From the NCBI RefSeq assembly GCF_000011085.1, contig NC_006396.1, positions 620,001-684,000 of the forward strand: DNA of 64,000 nt, in the 5' to 3' direction. Both the position numbers and the translations under genes were made by a program. This stretch comes from Haloarcula marismortui ATCC 43049 (GTDB taxonomy: Archaea > Halobacteriota > Halobacteria > Halobacteriales > Haloarculaceae). Each line of letters starts with the position of its first letter. The first letter of the stretch is position 1. Positions 13,197 to 39,274 of the stretch are shown one piece after another. Below the pieces are notes generated by a model, which was given only the letters and a program-made list of their open reading frames with translations, did no database searches and was not told where the DNA came from.

Positions 13197-14063
13197 TTAA
13201 TCCGTCTGTGGTGGGCGTGGCAGCGCCACGAACGTCGATTGCACGGGACTGAACGGGTCGTACACTGATTGGTGGCACTGACAGTAAATAGAGTTTGCGC
13301 CGCCGAAGTTTGCACTCCCTTCCTGCGTCTTGAATCCCGGCACACAGCAGAAGTGTGTACATTTGTTTAGCCAGGCGATGAAGCCTTGATCAGTCGCCTC
13401 TGAAATGAATGACTGGACGTTTCCGGGAAGGTCTCCGTACTCGCCCTCGCCGTTGGCCATCTTTTCGACTTCGACTGATCGGATTATCTGCACCGGAGCG
13501 CCGTTCTTTCCGTCGCTGTTGGTCCGCCAGACGACGCTTGCAGGCTTCCCGACGCCGGGGTCGCCGATGCCGTTGCCCCACTCCTTGTAGTCCTCAAACA
13601 TATCGACCGTGAGTGGTTTGCCGGATTCATACTCTCCCTGCCAGGAGAAGGTCCCGGTGTCGTTGAGAAACGTGCTGTTCCGGTCTGACTGAGGGTAGAT
13701 AGCGGCAGTGCTCTGGATACCACAGTACTGGAACCACTGCGAGGAGTAGTCGATACCGCTCCCGCCGAAGTCAGGTGCAACGGCCGCCCCGGCGTTCTCG
13801 TCGTACTCTGGCCAAAGCCCACTGATCTCGCCACCGTTTATCTCGATCGGGATGATCGGCATTCCCCGTGGTGCCGGTCCGGAGGTATTTTCGACAGCGA
13901 CGAACGGGGTTGTCCCGCCACCTTCGCCGGCGGCGTCTGTTGTCGCGTCAACGGCTGCTGCGCCACCGACGCCAACGCCTGAGAGTGCTGCACTCCCGAC
14001 GACGCCCTTTACAAAGCGACGACGGCCTGTTTCAGCCGGATATTTGTCTTCATCAAGTGGCAT
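13197..14063 (-). CDS. Rieske [2Fe-2S] protein of the bc-type complex
   Basis: 288-aa electron carrier taking electrons from quinol at the Qo site. The N-terminal TGRRRFVKGVVG followed by a hydrophobic stretch is a twin-arginine signal/anchor. Cluster ligands are in CTHFCCVPGF (Cys, His) and CQCHQSVYDPF (Cys, His) near residues 237-270, with extra Cys for the stabilising disulfide. The protein is longer than typical Rieske proteins because of an inserted acidic domain between anchor and cluster. Cotranscribed with both cytochrome b parts. Confidence 0.92.
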   Translation of the reverse strand: MPLDEDKYPAETGRRRFVKGVVGSAALSGVGVGGAAAVDATTDAAGEGGGTTPFVAVENTSGPAPRGMPIIPIEINGGEISGLWPEYDENAGAAVAPDFGGSGIDYSSQWFQYCGIQSTAAIYPQSDRNSTFLNDTGTFSWQGEYESGKPLTVDMFEDYKEWGNGIGDPGVGKPASVVWRTNSDGKNGAPVQIIRSVEVEKMANGEGEYGDLPGNVQSFISEATDQGFIAWLNKCTHFCCVPGFKTQEGSANFGGANSIYCQCHQSVYDPFSPVQSTFVALPRPPQTD

Positions 14064-14064
14064 A

Positions 14065-14484
14065 TTATTTCTTGTAGTATGGGTACACTGCGCGTTTGAA
14101 TGTCTCTGCGAGCTTGTCGCCGTCCGCCATCGTCGTGCCGTCGACGTCTTCCTGACGGATGTAGAGGTCTTCCCACTTGCGACGGCGCTTCTTGACGATC
14201 ATCACGTCGGGAAGGAACTCCTTGCGGTACAGCAGCATGATGAACGACAGGTCGATGAATATCGCCGTCAACACGCCGCCCATGAACATATTGGCCTCGA
14301 TGAGGCGGACCGTCAACGTCGTCCCGATACCGGACGCCCACCCGGCAATCATGCCGTAGGTGAAGAGCCCGACAAGGCCGACCTGAATGATCGTCAGGAG
14401 CACGATGCCGACAGCCGCTGCCGTGCTCTCGCGTGGCGGTTCGTACCGGTGAATATCGCCGTAGGTGGAGCCTTCGGATGCCAT
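14065..14484 (-). CDS. Two-TM membrane protein of the cytochrome bc operon (139 aa)
   Basis: Two hydrophobic helices (about residues 21-48 and 62-84) are followed by a basic region with KKRRRKWEDLYIRQ and a C-terminal PYYKK. No heme-binding CXXCH or metal motif is present. The gene lies between halocyanin (overlap TGATG) and the Rieske gene (1-nt gap), so its product is probably a structural or docking subunit of the complex. Function otherwise unknown. Confidence 0.72.
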   Translation of the reverse strand: MASEGSTYGDIHRYEPPRESTAAAVGIVLLTIIQVGLVGLFTYGMIAGWASGIGTTLTVRLIEANMFMGGVLTAIFIDLSFIMLLYRKEFLPDVMIVKKRRRKWEDLYIRQEDVDGTTMADGDKLAETFKRAVYPYYKK

Positions 14485-15140
14485 CAGTTGTTCCCTCCGC
14501 TAGTGTGGGGCGACTCGCCGTACTTCAGCTGGAAGAAGGTGAAGATCAGCGGGATGATGACTGCAAGTCCAGCGCCGAACCCAACGAAGTGGGGCTGAAT
14601 CGGGACGCCGGCGTAGTGTGGGTCGACCTCAACCGGGCCGCCGCCGCCGATTGTCTGTGTCGGGTACTCCTCGCCGACAACAATCGCCCCTTTCATGTTG
14701 AGTCCCTCGTGGGGGACACAGAGGTACGGGTAAATGCCGTCCTCCTCGAAGGTGTGCTCGTAGTTGACGCCGGCACTGGAGGCCGTGCTGCCGGAGTCCA
14801 GCGGACCGTCGCCGTCAGAGACGACGTTGTGGCCGCCACCGTTACCCGTCCATTCGAACTGGACGGTCGCGCCGTTGTCCACGTGGACGGCTGGCGGACC
14901 GAATCCGTACGCGCCGCCGTTGGCCTGCACGCCGACCTCGACAGTTACTGTGTCCTGCCCGGTCGCGTCGACGGTCGACCCGTCGAAGTTCCCGACCGAA
15001 TCCAGGAAACCGCCGTAGTCCGGGACGGTTTTGGCACCGTCACCGCCTTCCTCCTGTGCGGCGGCCGCGCCGGTGGCGCTGAGGGTCGCCGCAGCACCGG
15101 CGGCCCCCCCTGCTGTCCGGACGAACTCCCGTCTATTCAT
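14484..15140 (-). CDS. Halocyanin-type blue copper protein with C-terminal membrane anchor
   Basis: 218-aa secreted cupredoxin. It starts at MNRREFVRTAGGAAG, a twin-arginine signal. The copper ligands are visible: His in GGGHNVVSDG, then Cys, His and Met in YLCVPHEGLNM, the order expected of plastocyanin-like proteins. A C-terminal helix (VGFGAGLAVIIPLIFTFF) anchors it to the membrane. No cytochrome c1 or f gene is present in the operon, so this protein is the likely electron acceptor from the Rieske centre. Confidence 0.88.
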   Translation of the reverse strand: MNRREFVRTAGGAAGAAATLSATGAAAAQEEGGDGAKTVPDYGGFLDSVGNFDGSTVDATGQDTVTVEVGVQANGGAYGFGPPAVHVDNGATVQFEWTGNGGGHNVVSDGDGPLDSGSTASSAGVNYEHTFEEDGIYPYLCVPHEGLNMKGAIVVGEEYPTQTIGGGGPVEVDPHYAGVPIQPHFVGFGAGLAVIIPLIFTFFQLKYGESPHTSGGNN

Positions 15141-15204
15141 ATACACTCTGGAATCAGGACTGAGTTTGTATAAACCCACCGAATACCACCCGCAGGAACC
15201 GTCA

Positions 15205-21900: not shown

Positions 21901-21974
21901 GGGCCGGTAGCTCAGTCTGGCAGAGCGACGGCCTCTTAAGCCGTCGGTCGAGGGTTCAAATCCCTTCCGGCCCG
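21901..21974 (+). tRNA. tRNA-Lys (CTT)
   Basis: Complete cloverleaf of 74 nt. The acceptor stem pairs GGGCCGG with CCGGCCC, discriminator G. The D arm has TAGCTCAGTCTGGCAGAGC. The anticodon stem GACGGC/GCCGTC encloses CTCTTAA with anticodon CTT. The T arm is AGGGTTCAAATCCCT. A TATA-like CTATTTTAC lies about 31 nt upstream (21867-21875). No CCA is encoded. Copies of its 3' 22 nt follow downstream. Confidence 0.95.
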
Positions 21975-22315
21975 CTTTTGCGACGAACACTTCGTGAGGA
22001 GCAAAGCGGCTACGAAGCGGTTTTGAACGATGGAACGAGCGACCTGTGGGAGCGAAGTTCCGGTGGTTCAAATCCCTTCCGGCCCGTTTTCCTGCGAACG
22101 ACAGCGAGCAGTGAAAACGTTCGAAGGATTTGAATCAGGGAGGTCGCGCGGAGCGAAGCGAGCACGTCCGACCGTGGTTCAAATCCCTTCCGGCCCGCTA
22201 TTACTGTGGCTCGCAAATCCGCGAGCCACTGGTGTAGTAGGAGACATTTGAGCCAGAGAGGGCGCGAAGCCCGAAGCGAACACGCCCGACCGTGATTTGG
22301 CTCTCTTCCGACCCG
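21953..22315 (+). repeat. Array of repeated tRNA-Lys 3' ends with hairpin spacers
   Basis: The 22-nt tRNA tail GGTTCAAATCCCTTCCGGCC(CG) occurs inside the tRNA (21953-21974), then exactly at 22065-22086 and 22176-22197, and as a degenerate copy at 22294-22315. Intervals are 112, 111 and 118 nt. Ahead of each extra copy lies an inverted partner (for example GGATTTGAATCA at 22127-22138 facing TGGTTCAAATCC), with a purine-rich GAGCGAAGCGAGC-type core between. The units have no 5' tRNA half, so they are not tRNA genes. This 354-nt gap contains no convincing protein gene. Confidence 0.85.
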
Positions 22316-25183: not shown

Positions 25184-26071
25184 ATGAGTAGCTCCAGACA
25201 CCCGATTGCACTCGACATCGAGCGGCAGGTCGGCCGCGGTGGCCGGTTGCTGGCGACCGTTATGGGTCTGCCGCTCGTCGACGGCATCTTCCCAGTGCTC
25301 GTCCTCGCGGGGGCACTCTCGACCTGGATGGGCGTCCTCGAAGTGGGCTTGCTCGTCTTCGGCGGGTCGGCCACCGTCGCTGTCGTGTTAGCCGAACTCG
25401 AAGGCGGCCCCCGGCAGCAGGCGCGCTCTGTACTCATCATCGGAGCCGTGTTGATGCCGATCGCGCTCGTCGAAGCGGCCCTTGCGCCGACGGTTGCGGG
25501 ACTCGTCGAACTGGGGACCCTCGAACGGTTCGCCGGCCTCGTCATCCTCGCCATCGCAGCACAGACCGCGAGCGCCCGAATCGGCGAGTACCTGCCGCGG
25601 CCAGCCGTCATCGTCGTCCTCGGCCTCCTGGCGAGCCTTGACCCCGCCGGCGCAACGCTGGTCACCGCTATCGAACCCGGTGTCTTGCTCCGCGCGGCCG
25701 CCACCACGGGCGTCGGTATCGGCTTCGCCCTCGCCGTCGCACTGGCGAGCCCGTGGCTGCGTAACGCCGTCGACATCGACCGCTTTCGCTTCGGTAGCGC
25801 TGTCGCGCTCGGCGTCCTCGCCCTTTCGGTCCTCGGCGTGATGCCGACCGACGCGCCCGTGGCGCTGGCCGTGCTCGCTGTCACGGCGCTGCTGTCGTTC
25901 GACCCGGAGAACGCCCGCACGCGTCACACGGAATACCGACCGGACGCCGTGGACCTCACCGCCGCCTTCGCCGACGGCGGCGCGTCCCAGGGCGTTGCCG
26001 CCGACGAGCAGACCGACGAAGGGGCCGCGGTCGAGTACGAACCGGATCAAGAACGCGCCCCGTGGCTGTGA
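25184..26071 (+). CDS. DUF5794-type multi-spanning membrane protein
   Basis: 295 aa, opening MSSSRHPIALDIERQVGRGG and LLATVMGLPLVDGIFPVLVL, which I recognise as the haloarchaeal DUF5794 family. Roughly six to seven hydrophobic segments cover residues 30-245; the final 50 residues form an acidic cytoplasmic tail. No transporter or enzyme motif is apparent. It is followed 41 nt later by the DUF5795 zinc-ribbon gene, a pairing common in haloarchaea, so a shared function is likely but unknown. Confidence 0.75.
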   Translation: MSSSRHPIALDIERQVGRGGRLLATVMGLPLVDGIFPVLVLAGALSTWMGVLEVGLLVFGGSATVAVVLAELEGGPRQQARSVLIIGAVLMPIALVEAALAPTVAGLVELGTLERFAGLVILAIAAQTASARIGEYLPRPAVIVVLGLLASLDPAGATLVTAIEPGVLLRAAATTGVGIGFALAVALASPWLRNAVDIDRFRFGSAVALGVLALSVLGVMPTDAPVALAVLAVTALLSFDPENARTRHTEYRPDAVDLTAAFADGGASQGVAADEQTDEGAAVEYEPDQERAPWL

Positions 26072-26394: not shown

Positions 26395-26575
26395 GGGGTC
26401 GTGGCCTAGTCCGGGAAGGCGGCTGACTCCAGAGGCCACGCGCCTGGGACGACACTCCAAGGGCTGATATACTGAGCGGCCGGCTGATCACCGGTTCGCG
26501 ACGATGACCCTCTGGAGTTCCGAGGCGCAGGACGGAGATATCAGCCGATCGGGGGTTCAAATCCCTCCGACCCCA
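26395..26575 (+). tRNA. tRNA-Trp (CCA) with a ~107-nt intron
   Basis: The acceptor stem pairs GGGGTCG (26395-26401) with CGACCCC (26568-26574), discriminator A. The anticodon stem GCTGA/TCAGC encloses CTCCAG...A with anticodon CCA at 26429-26431. An intron of about 107 nt (26433-26539) is inserted after position 37, the canonical archaeal site. The T arm is GGGTTCAAATCCC. A CTTTAATG element at 26364-26371 is a well-placed TATA. Intron-exon borders may shift by a base or two depending on the bulge-helix-bulge. Confidence 0.93.
26433..26539 (+). ncRNA. Box C/D guide RNA within the tRNA-Trp intron
   Basis: Two antisense guides to the tRNA itself are readable. GGCTGATAT (26462-26470) is the exact complement of exon positions 26538-26546 and is followed after one base by a CTGA box; the fifth base upstream of the box pairs with U39. 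CCTCTGGAGT (26509-26518) complements 26426-26435 and is followed after one base by CCGA; its fifth base pairs with C34. ACGATGA (26501-26507) is a near-consensus box C/C'. This matches the known haloarchaeal system that directs 2'-O-methylation of C34 and U39. Box assignments are mine. Confidence 0.88.
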
Positions 26576-26950
26576 TTTCCTGCCGCGAGCTACAACGCGA
26601 GCGGCAGAACTGTTGAGAGGGGGATTTGAACCACGCGAGACGAACGAAGTGAGTCTCGCAGTCAGGTGAAAATCCCTCCGACCCCATTTCTCGCGTTTCA
26701 CGCTCCAGAAGTGCCAGCAGAGGCTCTTTTGCTCAAGTCTCTCCGACCACATACCGTTACCCTTTCAGACCGGTCTGTTCGCTGGCTTGCATCACAGTAG
26801 GACGTCGCAACCGGCTATATCTGGCTCTAAACCCATCCTCAGCACTGCCAGAGCATTCTGAAAGCACGGACCTGTAGTCAGTGCCGAGTTGCAGACGCCA
26901 ACACTGCCCAAGTCCAATGAGTTTACTGCATGGCGGCTATCTGCCCACGC
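26576..26950. repeat. tRNA-Trp 3'-end copy and hairpins, otherwise no gene
   Basis: 375 nt with no protein gene. AATCCCTCCGACCCCATTTC from the tRNA end (26560 onward) recurs at 26671-26690, an interval of 111 nt. Between them are a CTGCCGC/GCGGCAG hairpin (26580-26607) and a perfect GCGAGAC/GTCTCGC hairpin (26635-26659). A third, partial copy (CTCCGACC) is at 26741-26748. The right end carries AGTTTACT near 26918, about 30 nt before the carbonic anhydrase ATG, the likely TATA box. Confidence 0.75.
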
Positions 26951-27631
26951 ATGAGTCAGTTATTACGTGATTTACTTGCCGGAAACGCCGACCACGCGGC
27001 GGCGTTCCGGGACCGGTTCGACAGCGTCCAGAACTCACAAACACCCGATGCTGTCACGGTCTGTTGCTCCGACTCGCGGGTGCTGCAGGACCATATGTGG
27101 GGCAACAGCGAGCCGGGACATCTCTTTACCTGTAGCAACATCGGGAACCGAGTTATCCAGCAGACCGCGTCCGGCGAGGCGGTCTCGGGTGACGTGTTGT
27201 ACCCCATCGAGCACACGATGACCGAAACCGCCATCGTCGTCGGCCACACCGGCTGTGGAGCGGTGACGGCGACCTACGACGACCTGACGGACGGCCTCGA
27301 TGAGCCGGCCGGTATCGAGCACTGTCTCGGTGTTCTCAAGCCCCATCTCGAGCCTGCGCTGGAACATCTCCCGGAGGATATCGAGCGGGCGGCAGCCATC
27401 AACCGGCTTGTCGAGTACAATGTCGATAGACAAGTCGAGTTCCTCCGAGACAGCGATGACGTGCCCGACGCCGTCGACGTGTTCGGTGTCGTCTACGACT
27501 TTCAGGACGTGTACGGGGGGCAACGGGGTGAGGTCCACGTAATCAACGTCGACGGCGAAACCGATGTCGACGCGCTCCGGGCAGCCCATCCCGATATCGA
27601 CTCACGGATCAACCGTCTCTGGGAGTACTAA
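26951..27631 (+). CDS. Beta-class carbonic anhydrase
   Basis: 226-aa zinc enzyme interconverting CO2 and bicarbonate in the cytoplasm. Zinc ligands are the Cys in VTVCCSDSRV and the His and Cys in VVGHTGCGAV; the Asp and Arg of the CSDSR dyad are present. The start is at MSQLLRDLLAG; an ATG 21 nt upstream encodes a poor extension. A TATA-like element 30 nt upstream suggests a leaderless transcript. Confidence 0.92.
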   Translation: MSQLLRDLLAGNADHAAAFRDRFDSVQNSQTPDAVTVCCSDSRVLQDHMWGNSEPGHLFTCSNIGNRVIQQTASGEAVSGDVLYPIEHTMTETAIVVGHTGCGAVTATYDDLTDGLDEPAGIEHCLGVLKPHLEPALEHLPEDIERAAAINRLVEYNVDRQVEFLRDSDDVPDAVDVFGVVYDFQDVYGGQRGEVHVINVDGETDVDALRAAHPDIDSRINRLWEY

Positions 27632-37114: not shown

Positions 37115-39274
37115 TTAGCTGTTGCTCCCGTTGCCGCTGTGGCCATTCTCGTTACCGTTGTTGCTATTTTCGTTGCCGTTGTTACCGTTGCCGCTGTTGC
37201 CGTTACCGCTATTCCCGTTTCTCGTCTTTTCTTCGGGCTCCTGTGGCTCGTAGACGTAGAGCCCGTCGTTCGGGTACGAACGCGCGGGGCCGCCGAAGCC
37301 GTCCTCACAGCAGAGGACGCGTCCGTCGTCCATCACGTAGACGTTATCGACGTTCCGGAGCGCGTCGTCGGCGTCTTCTGGCTCGTCGGTGAAGTCGGGG
37401 CCGACAATGACCGGTTCGAGCGTCGAGATGTTGTAGTCCGATTCCAGCACACCGCGATAGACGACGCCACCGTCGACGCGGTCCATCTGGATGTCGCCCT
37501 CGTCGTTTGCGAGGTCGTCGTTGAACTCCGAAATACCGAAGTAGACTGGGTCGCCCGGTCCGGCACCGTCCTTGCTGTCGACACCCTCTGCTTTGTTGAA
37601 CTCGATCGATACGCCGACTTCCTTTGCCGCCGCACGGGTTTCGAGGAACGGAACCCGGCGGAGTTCCTCGTCAACGCCGTCAGGACCTTCGGCGTAGTAC
37701 TGGTCGGCCCACTCGACAATTTCCTCGTTGGTGATGTAGTTCTGGTTGCCGTTCTCGATGACTTCTCGGTCAGCCTCCTCGAGGGCGGCCTCGCGGTCCT
37801 CCATCCAGTCAGACCCGGCGTGGACTCGGAGATAGTCAGATTGCGTGATGTCGTCGTATTCGGCAATCCACTCTTCGATTTCCGCGTTGCTTGCACTACC
37901 CAGCGGAATCCACTCGATGTCGAGCGAGTACTCAGCCGGAGACTTCCGTGTGCCAACCGTCGACGCGTCCGCCTGTGGGTTCGTAATCTTCGGCGCGTAC
38001 AGCGTGCCCGACACGTCCATCGGGTCGTCGTACTTCGGAATCCGCTCGTCGGCGACGAACTTGTAGATGCCCTTGCTGTCGCCGTCCGAGCACATATAGA
38101 CAGTTTGCTCGTCGGCCTGAATGTTCGGTGCCTCCCATGAGGCCCGCCCCATCACGTAGTACTTGACTGGCTGTGGCGGGTCGGCGGTCGGCTCGCGGAA
38201 GTCGACGTGGTAGCCATATCGGTACGGGTTCGGATACGTATCAGAGATCGGTTCGGTGCTATTGCTGTTTGAGTTCTGATATGACTGCTCAGAACCGAGA
38301 TAATACGCGAGGAATTCCACGCCGTCCAGCGCCCAGTATCCCTGGATGCTCCAAGCTTCGTCGCCGTAGTAGTCGTCGACGGCGCTCTGAATCTCAGTCG
38401 GGTTCGGTCGGTTCCAGAACTGCGCACCACCGATGCGTCCCTTTCCGGTGCCGGCGTCGACGATGTCACCGACTTGGTTGGTCAGCGACACACGGGGGTG
38501 GGCGTAGTTCTCCTCTGAAGAGATCATTGTTCCCCACGGGCTAAGATCGCCGTAACAGTTGATCCGCGTGCCACCGATCTCACGGAACGGCTCCGTGTTC
38601 GCCAGGTTGATCGCGTCATCGAGGTCGGCTTCCCACTCGCCGTCGAAAGTCTGGCGCAACGGGATTCGACTGACGTTGCCCGGACTGTTCTCCCAGTTGG
38701 TAAACAGGTACCCTTCAGTTCCGTCCTCGTCTGTCGGGACAAACTGATTACAGTCAGGGTTCGTCCCAGCCGCACCGTACTGCGTCCCTTCGAAATTGTC
38801 TAGCGTGATGTCCGTTCCGTCCGGCGTCTGCGTCACGCCGAGGCGCTCTTCGCCGTCGTTGATTTTGTCCCGACCGTGTGCGAGGATTTCGTATTCCCCG
38901 TCGCCTGACCGGACCTGACGCTGCTCCGCCTCGGTCTGTGGCGTCGACAGCTCGTCGAAGTCGTCGTTAGTCCCATCAAGTTCGAACTGGAAACCACTGA
39001 AATAGCCGATTCCAGCAGTGTCGAACGGCTCCGGATTTTCCTCCTCAGGATGCTGGAGACTGTACAGGAGTGCCCCGTTCTGGAAGACAAACGGCCCTGT
39101 CACCTCCGCCCCGAACGCTGTCGTCGAAAATCGTTTGAGGTCACCCTTGACAGTCCCCGAGCCGACTGTCTCAGATTCTGCGACCTCATCACCACTTGCC
39201 ACACCGATGACACTGGCCCCAAGCGCAGCTGCCACCGATTTCGAGAGTACCTGTCGTCGACTAAAATCGACCAT
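37115..39274 (-). CDS. phoX: PhoX-family secreted phosphatase, copy 1
   Basis: 719-aa exported protein of the PhoX/DUF839 family (Ca/Fe alkaline phosphatases that release phosphate from organic esters). The twin-arginine signal is FSRRQVLSKSVAAALGASVI. Family segments include NCYGDLSPWGTMISSEENY with the conserved iron-ligand Cys, CSDGDSKGIYKFVADERIP, and VYVMDDGRVLCCEDGFGGP. The C terminus after YVYEPQEPEEK is a ~36-residue Asn/Gly/Ser repeat tail. Start is at MVDFSRRQ, four codons after another ATG. Function as phosphatase is inferred from family. Confidence 0.88.
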   Translation of the reverse strand: MVDFSRRQVLSKSVAAALGASVIGVASGDEVAESETVGSGTVKGDLKRFSTTAFGAEVTGPFVFQNGALLYSLQHPEEENPEPFDTAGIGYFSGFQFELDGTNDDFDELSTPQTEAEQRQVRSGDGEYEILAHGRDKINDGEERLGVTQTPDGTDITLDNFEGTQYGAAGTNPDCNQFVPTDEDGTEGYLFTNWENSPGNVSRIPLRQTFDGEWEADLDDAINLANTEPFREIGGTRINCYGDLSPWGTMISSEENYAHPRVSLTNQVGDIVDAGTGKGRIGGAQFWNRPNPTEIQSAVDDYYGDEAWSIQGYWALDGVEFLAYYLGSEQSYQNSNSNSTEPISDTYPNPYRYGYHVDFREPTADPPQPVKYYVMGRASWEAPNIQADEQTVYMCSDGDSKGIYKFVADERIPKYDDPMDVSGTLYAPKITNPQADASTVGTRKSPAEYSLDIEWIPLGSASNAEIEEWIAEYDDITQSDYLRVHAGSDWMEDREAALEEADREVIENGNQNYITNEEIVEWADQYYAEGPDGVDEELRRVPFLETRAAAKEVGVSIEFNKAEGVDSKDGAGPGDPVYFGISEFNDDLANDEGDIQMDRVDGGVVYRGVLESDYNISTLEPVIVGPDFTDEPEDADDALRNVDNVYVMDDGRVLCCEDGFGGPARSYPNDGLYVYEPQEPEEKTRNGNSGNGNSGNGNNGNENSNNGNENGHSGNGSNS

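Follow-up and report, generated by a model that had tools for sequence, protein, structure and literature searches.

Hairpin units that end in a copy of the host tRNA tail behind haloarchaeal tRNA genes, and the case for regarding them as mobile cassettes

REP/BIME sequences, MITE-like palindromic repeats and hairpins of the IS200/IS605 type are short, gene-less imperfect palindromes that fold as single strands and are present in many copies. Integron attC cassettes are hairpin sites in ordered arrays, from which cassettes are gained and lost and in which their order changes. Archaeal tyrosine integrases use the 3′ ends of tRNA genes as sites and leave a partial copy of the tRNA behind (PMC8371274). 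The casposase of A. boonei has been described as reading the T-loop sequence TCAAATC at a tRNA 3′ end, upstream of a duplication of 14-15 bp, with a leader-proximal polarity like that of CRISPR (PMC6614799).

Here, we describe a small, repeated unit directly behind the intron-bearing tRNA-Trp gene of Haloarcula marismortui ATCC 43049, a gene that was missed by ARAGORN. The window, that is, the whole stretch of DNA analysed, is 64,000 nt long, and its features are collected in Table 1. The sequence AATCCCTCCGACCCCATTTC, at the end of tRNA-Trp (26560-26579), recurs exactly at 26671-26690, 111 nt away, and an exact repeat of this 20-mer was obtained in none of 100 shuffles. The recurrence stated in the original prediction is thereby confirmed, and the parts it had described (T-run, hairpin, GGATTTGAA, GCGAGAC/GTCTCGC stem-loop, tail) are all present, in a unit whose fold beats shuffles. 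The tRNA lies between a DUF5794 gene (25184-26071) and a beta-type carbonic anhydrase gene (Pro_CA, 26930-27631), and the spacing from the Pro_CA gene to tRNA-Trp changes with the number of units. A second array, of two good units and one decayed unit, is found 4.6 kb upstream behind tRNA-Lys(CTT), with tail spacings of 112 and 111. The equal interval claimed for the two tRNAs is not supported as such: 111 is only the mode of unit lengths that spread from 65 to 158 in this genome, and its standing as a meaningful constant was rejected on that spread. Elsewhere in the window, Tandem Repeats Finder reports tandem repeats of 15 and 21 nt at 37129-37219.

Table 1. Positions of the tRNA-Trp and tRNA-Lys(CTT) genes and of the units behind them (window coordinates).
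Feature	Position	Strand	Basis or remark
tRNA-Trp, host gene, intron-bearing; discriminator A73 = 26575	26395..26575	+	Rfam RF00005, 46.6 bits
tRNA-Trp 3′ tail (copied segment, T-loop to A73), TTCAAATCCCTCCGACCCCA	26556..26575	+	direct repeat 26554-26579 / 26665-26690; exact 20-mer
Tail-copying Trp unit, 111 nt, directly after A73	26576..26686	+	filled here, empty in G005 and G313
Trp unit, first hairpin (hp1), CTGCCGC-GA-GC..GC-GA-GCGGCAG, tandem G.A	26580..26607	+	fold; tandem GA motif
Trp unit, inverted tail (anti-tail), pairs with tail copy; GGGATTTGAACC at 26621-26632	26612..26632	+	inverted repeat I8; fold
Trp unit, core hairpin GCGAGAC-GA-AC-GAA-GT-GA-GTCTCGC, tandem G.A, GAA triloop	26635..26659	+	fold; tandem GA match at 26640
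Trp unit, host tail copy TGAAAATCCCTCCGACCCCA; last 16 nt (26671-26686) exact	26667..26686	+	tail comparison
Trp, decayed second fragment, 65 nt, ending in degenerate tail copy CTCAAGTCTCTCCGACCACA (4 mismatches)	26687..26751	+	absent from single-unit allele L468
tRNA-Lys(CTT), host gene	21901..21974	+	
Lys unit K1, 112 nt; tail copy 22067-22086	21975..22086	+	absent in G005, where K2 is directly behind the tRNA
Lys unit K2, 111 nt; tail copy 22178-22197	22087..22197	+	core 95% identical to core of Arg-CCT unit 1
Decayed Lys unit K3, ending in degenerate tail GATTTGGCTCTCTTCCGACCCG	22198..22315	+	homologous to second unit of G005

The units resemble elements moved by tyrosine integrases in their tRNA 3′-end target, precise border, duplicated 3′ part and intact tRNA, and comparison with empty sites indeed places the insertion border at a tRNA that is left whole. 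They differ in having no gene, a length of about 110 nt, arrays behind many tRNAs, an inverted tail and two hairpins; an integrase-bearing element bounded by a partial tRNA copy is not found in them. Casposons likewise go into tRNA 3′ ends and duplicate their target, but in casposons the duplicated stretch lies downstream of TCAAATC, whereas in the units it includes the motif. Moreover, units have neither genes nor inverted termini: the two outer ends of the 111-nt Trp unit do not form an inverted repeat, its length leaves no room for genes such as that of a polymerase, and Cas1 (PF01867) was detected in 6 of 12 unit-bearing genomes, so that it was rejected as an obligatory enzyme. As the duplicated stretch is placed differently relative to the motif and casposon parts are missing, the likeness is one of working and not of membership.

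As in CRISPR arrays, a repeat (the tail) alternates with inserts, growth is by the leader (here the tRNA) and the older end is decayed. Unlike the identical repeats and unique foreign spacers of uniform length in CRISPR, the repeat here is specific to its locus, and the inserts are related hairpins that vary in length and have cores common across loci. The units share short, gene-less, imperfect palindromes, a folded single strand and a multi-copy state with the REP/BIME, MITE-like and IS200/IS605 kinds, yet they occur only at tRNA ends and carry a copy of the host tail. Y1 transposase (PF01797), found in 10 of the 12 unit-bearing genomes, was also rejected as an obligatory enzyme, being missing from the other two. 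Integron cassettes are comparable in their hairpin sites and in the gain, loss and reordering of members of an ordered array; the units differ from them in having no open reading frames and a repeat derived from the host.

Such units form a class that exists behind many haloarchaeal tRNAs. When the last 20 nt of 46 distinct tRNA genes of this genome were searched for within 900 nt downstream, allowing at most 5 mismatches (a cut-off that hides older copies), 31 copies were found at 19 genes and none with reversed tails, while tails of other tRNAs were matched in 7% of comparisons. These counts treat the second tRNA-Asp gene as a copy of the first; after removal of the array common to the tandem tRNA-Asp genes, 29 copies at 18 of the 46 genes are left. 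The corrected figures for three further genomes are 18/42, 22/43 and 16/45 tRNA genes with units, and a fourth (G058) has units at 9 of the 29 tRNA genes examined (30 loci of 46 matches). When 294 genomes of the phylum were screened with a strict hairpin pattern, it turned up in 41, all of them among the 53 from the order of the window and none among the 241 others, and its reversed form was never found in the same 294 genomes; the misses of the strict pattern mean little, as it recovers just 1 of the approximately 29 real units in this genome.

Among the strict-pattern matches listed from other haloarchaeal loci, 35 of 36 hairpins stand behind a tRNA on the same strand, 20-352 nt away, and the remaining one starts at base 1 of its contig. 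The tails of these 35 listed hairpins are exact in 19 cases and have at most two mismatches in 28, with one (L116) having 9. Together with the 18 genes in this genome, these loci bear out the proposal that each unit copies the end of the particular tRNA that it follows. A broad scan of genome contigs, for which chance matches are expected given the size of the pattern and the very large collection, listed 80 of at least 120 stretches; 22 of the listed loci were taken as haloarchaeal (one is titled only Euryarchaeota), and the other 58, nine of them with a tRNA, were set aside. A plasmid match (C7, L001) was rejected as a chance occurrence in a coding stretch with no tRNA. No haloarchaeal tRNA unit was seen in the 80 viral stretches examined of 109 matching the strict pattern, and no unit was recognised when plasmid and phage records were searched by blastn with the Trp unit.

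In the genome itself, the tandem-GA hairpin motif CGARCGNAGYGAG has 46 occurrences, against 20 for the reversed pattern, and it is often found away from tRNA units (for example, G000:C8:1356053, 1488598 and 2797037). Some older units have a second recurrent end type beside TTCAAATCC, a tail start of GCTCA-GTCCC/ACTCCC after a GC-rich hairpin, as at L015/L256 (tRNA-Gly GCC) and L008/L249 (tRNA-Arg CCT). Five viral contigs (L343, L354, L358, L376 and L379) hold long, near-perfect and recurrent palindromes, GGATTTGAACCGTGGACC/GTTCC..CGGTTCAAATCC, that are not beside tRNAs and possibly correspond to matches in Hyphomicrobiales genomes.

The original prediction took the two tRNAs to carry one element type. 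A common plan and class are indeed evident, but the Trp and Lys(CTT) bodies are not alike: in direct alignments of the Trp body with the three Lys(CTT) units, 58, 14 and 60 of 200 shuffles score as well, and only the GGATTTGAA arm and the tail are detectably common to both. As such, this pair comes close to the outcome, no common sequence beyond the tail, that had been named as speaking against the prediction; its observation is confirmed and its interpretation is supported in part. The closer kin of the Trp unit are found elsewhere. Its homology with the Arg-TCG unit is clear (score 78, versus a shuffled mean of 16, reached by 0 of 200 shuffles); the two have the odd T-loop variant TGAAAATCC in common although the host tails at their ends differ. 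The Trp unit is likewise homologous to the Leu-TAG and Val-GAC units. The units belong to several core lineages, which recur across tRNAs.

Near-identical cores are present behind different tRNAs while the tails are host-specific. When the cores of 109 units from four genomes were compared, identity reached 85% or more in 29 of 5621 pairs with different host tRNAs and in 15 of 265 with the same host tRNA, as compared to 0 of 3000 pairs of shuffled cores. Where two units of one genome lie behind different tRNAs and their cores reach 88% identity or more, each of the 26 unit ends is nearer to its own host tail, with a mean of 0.73 mismatches to it versus 5.8 to that of the partner. The clearest recent spread is seen in G065, in which near-identical first hairpins lie behind Val-GAC, Leu-TAG and Leu-GAG. 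In this genome, the unit at Leu-TAG has the tail of that tRNA, yet its anti-tail fits Leu-GAG, as expected if the tail of a new host is taken at once and the anti-tail lags. Most anti-tails fit their own host too (the mean rank of the own tail is 10.1 among 44 others), and in some cross-tRNA pairs the core alone is alike and both arms are host-fitted, which resembles loop exchange and not insertion of a whole unit. These two observations argue against a simple version in which the tail comes first and the anti-tail follows. Furthermore, the hp1 and core modules shuffle independently of each other.

Between close relatives, entire units may be there or missing, and the join then falls directly behind the discriminator base. 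Compared with the close relative G005, this is seen at Trp, Val-GAC, Gly-GCC, Gly-CCC, Lys-CTT (K1) and Lys-TTT (two units); at Val-GAC, Lys-CTT and Gly-CCC, the left border falls directly after base 73 with no bases common at the join. The Tyr locus differs from G005 by presence and absence as well, with a duplication that extends 10 nt further. At Met the order of units is swapped, Asp carries another unit, and the differences at Leu-TAG and Arg-CCT fall within the array. In Haloarcula, 8 of 28 tRNA-Trp loci have a unit and 20 are empty, including that of the nearest relative of this genome at the locus, so both of the states that the original prediction proposed to compare are available. 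G005 and G313 have the flank TACTGTTACCC directly after A73, and in L468 one unit of 111 nt stands between the tRNA and the flank that adjoins the tRNA in the empty genomes. In one Haloarcula genome (G312), two tRNA-Trp gene matches of equal score were found. Presence and absence cannot by themselves separate gain from loss by tail-tail recombination, and a tree of the Trp loci, which has weak nodes, does not polarise the two. Trp units are 95-96% identical between species and the adjoining intergenic flanks 73-81%, a difference that would mean recent exchange or constraint while the unit is present.

The arrays are also polarised. Tail copies farther from the tRNA tend to have more mismatches (Spearman 0.23, p 0.005; 154 copies in five genomes), and among 43 arrays the outermost copy is poorer than the innermost in 22 and better in 5 (p 0.0005), both figures having been obtained on the uncorrected arrays in which the second tRNA-Asp gene counts as a copy. 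Since detection ends at 5 mismatches, the trend is weakened and not created by the cut-off. The decay is as would be seen in polarised, CRISPR-like growth with novelty near the leader and older units decayed, but not all differences are tRNA-proximal (Leu-TAG, Arg-CCT and Met), some of them being internal.

The fold of the Trp unit exceeds that of shuffled sequences both as RNA (z -6.0) and as DNA (z -4.1). Tandem G.A hairpins, often with GNA loops, number 86 in sense and 6 in antisense (68 and 5 of 116 units, respectively); this bias to the tRNA strand argues that the sense strand folds as a single strand. In the arm formed by tail and anti-tail, 22 G.T-type and 25 A.C-type changes give no G.U excess, as expected for DNA pairing rather than RNA pairing. 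The ratio is 10:16 in stems outside the tail arm, 25:8 in stems containing it and 48:26 over all stems, the last of which leans to RNA. We read these counts, inconsistent among stem classes, as holding no consistent RNA signature. Identity with a known RNA family was rejected, as the Rfam covariance search returned only tRNA at the gathering score and nothing convincing at E 1.

To bring these observations together, we favour, at about even confidence, the reading that gene-less hairpin DNA cassettes enter mature tRNA 3′ ends, duplicate the T-loop-to-73 segment of the host and later turn over by tail-tail recombination. The cassette would be a segment of about 90-160 nt consisting of a T-run, first hairpin, inverted tail, core hairpin and the last 16-20 nt of the host. 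It would enter just after base 73, probably as a folded sense single strand with its tandem G.A hairpins and GNA loops, and the host T-loop-to-73 segment would be duplicated, leaving the tRNA whole and producing an additional tail. Incoming units would mostly settle beside the tRNA, pushing older ones outward to decay there, and recombination between tail repeats could bring about later loss, changes of order and allelic spread. The anti-tail may subsequently be matched to the host through hairpin (quasi-palindrome) correction or through selection. Counting against this reading are Cas1 and Y1 transposase, which some unit-bearing genomes lack, the viral stretches, plasmids and phages in which the searches described above recognised no unit, the pairs alike in the core alone, the G.T surplus over all stems, and the differences away from the tRNA. 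More tentatively, and with somewhat less than even confidence, these elements could constitute a new class of mobile DNA: haloarchaeal tRNA 3′-end cassettes that read the T-loop GGTTCAAATCC, take a fresh copy of the acceptor tail with each jump and build polarised, CRISPR-like arrays with the tRNA as leader, moved by a hypothetical dedicated single-strand recombinase.

The units could instead arise without any enzyme of their own, by a replication error in which nascent strands switch template at the tRNA end and return at the conserved GGTTCAAATCC, re-copying the host tail; hairpins would stall the fork, the anti-tail would be matched by quasi-palindrome correction, and the units would be by-products kept by concerted evolution. 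The T-loop does offer 9-11 nt of homology common to all hosts and unit ends, the arms of most units match the host both ways, and the independent shuffling of modules and the tail arm free of G.U excess are in keeping with such an origin. We nevertheless regard it as unlikely, though a serious competitor, given that the exact border after base 73 at the three loci with no common bases is unlike random microhomology and that the system is restricted to one order although T-loops are universal. A functional role is also conceivable, in which units are transcribed with the tRNA as trailers and act as RNA (in termination, protection, as 3′ processing decoys or as small RNAs), the tail and its complement being held by selection on RNA structure. 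The strong RNA fold, the placing of every unit on the tRNA strand, the sense-only tandem G.A hairpins, the T-run behind each tail and the conservation of Trp units above their flanks would all suit such trailers. Set against this are the majority of tRNAs, and of Trp loci, that do without a unit, the turnover between close relatives, and the G.T to A.C ratios in the tail arm (22:25) and in the stems outside it (10:16), and we consider this role rather improbable, if likewise a serious competitor.

Far less probable is that the units are remnants of ordinary integrative elements, each being the attR that stayed behind when an element integrated at the tRNA was deleted, despite the known habit of archaeal tyrosine integrases at tRNA 3′ ends (PMC8371274). 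All own tails were searched for in 858 kb (40 stretches behind tRNAs and the window), which gave two far copies in addition to the arrays and a few matches that look like chance. One lies 7 kb downstream of tRNA-Val(CAC), where an element of ~7 kb (L436 1-7100, G000:C8:1302523 onward) ends in an exact tail copy adjoining an integrase-family ORF (PF00589, 1.2e-6), and the other 14.5 kb downstream of tRNA-Phe, where an element of ~14.5 kb has a tail copy with 3 mismatches (L434 about 13885-15200, far copy G000:C8:2078512) beside an integrase-family ORF (PF00589, 2.1e-14). No hairpin unit is present at the far copies or at the tRNAs of these two elements, so ordinary integrated elements and units are separate things, and att scars were rejected on this ground; the recurrent anatomy and length of the units and the cores common across tRNAs also speak against them. 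Decay of tandem tRNA gene copies is hardly credible. The tRNA-Asp genes are truly tandem here, with a unit behind the second gene, but the tail, in either orientation, is the only part of a tRNA in the units, and the anti-tail and core are not tRNA sequence, an anatomy that contradicts such decay.

No description of such units was recognised in the open-licence literature as covered by titles and the starts of abstracts. In passages of haloarchaeal papers, partial tRNA copies are mentioned only as marks of prophages or the matter is not treated. The gain, loss and swapping of cassettes among close relatives points to a little-noticed kind of mobile DNA. Even if the units were functional trailers, they would make up an order-wide, tRNA-linked class of RNA that is new to the RNA libraries searched. 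If the mobile reading is true, a third to half of the tRNA genes in these archaea would carry arrays of mobile non-coding cassettes that have been overlooked in annotation, and an insertion mode that copies the host tail would join the known uses of tRNA genes as landing sites. Such arrays would also be a natural comparison for the origin of polarised, CRISPR-like arrays and a convenient marker for recent changes in the genomes of closely related strains.
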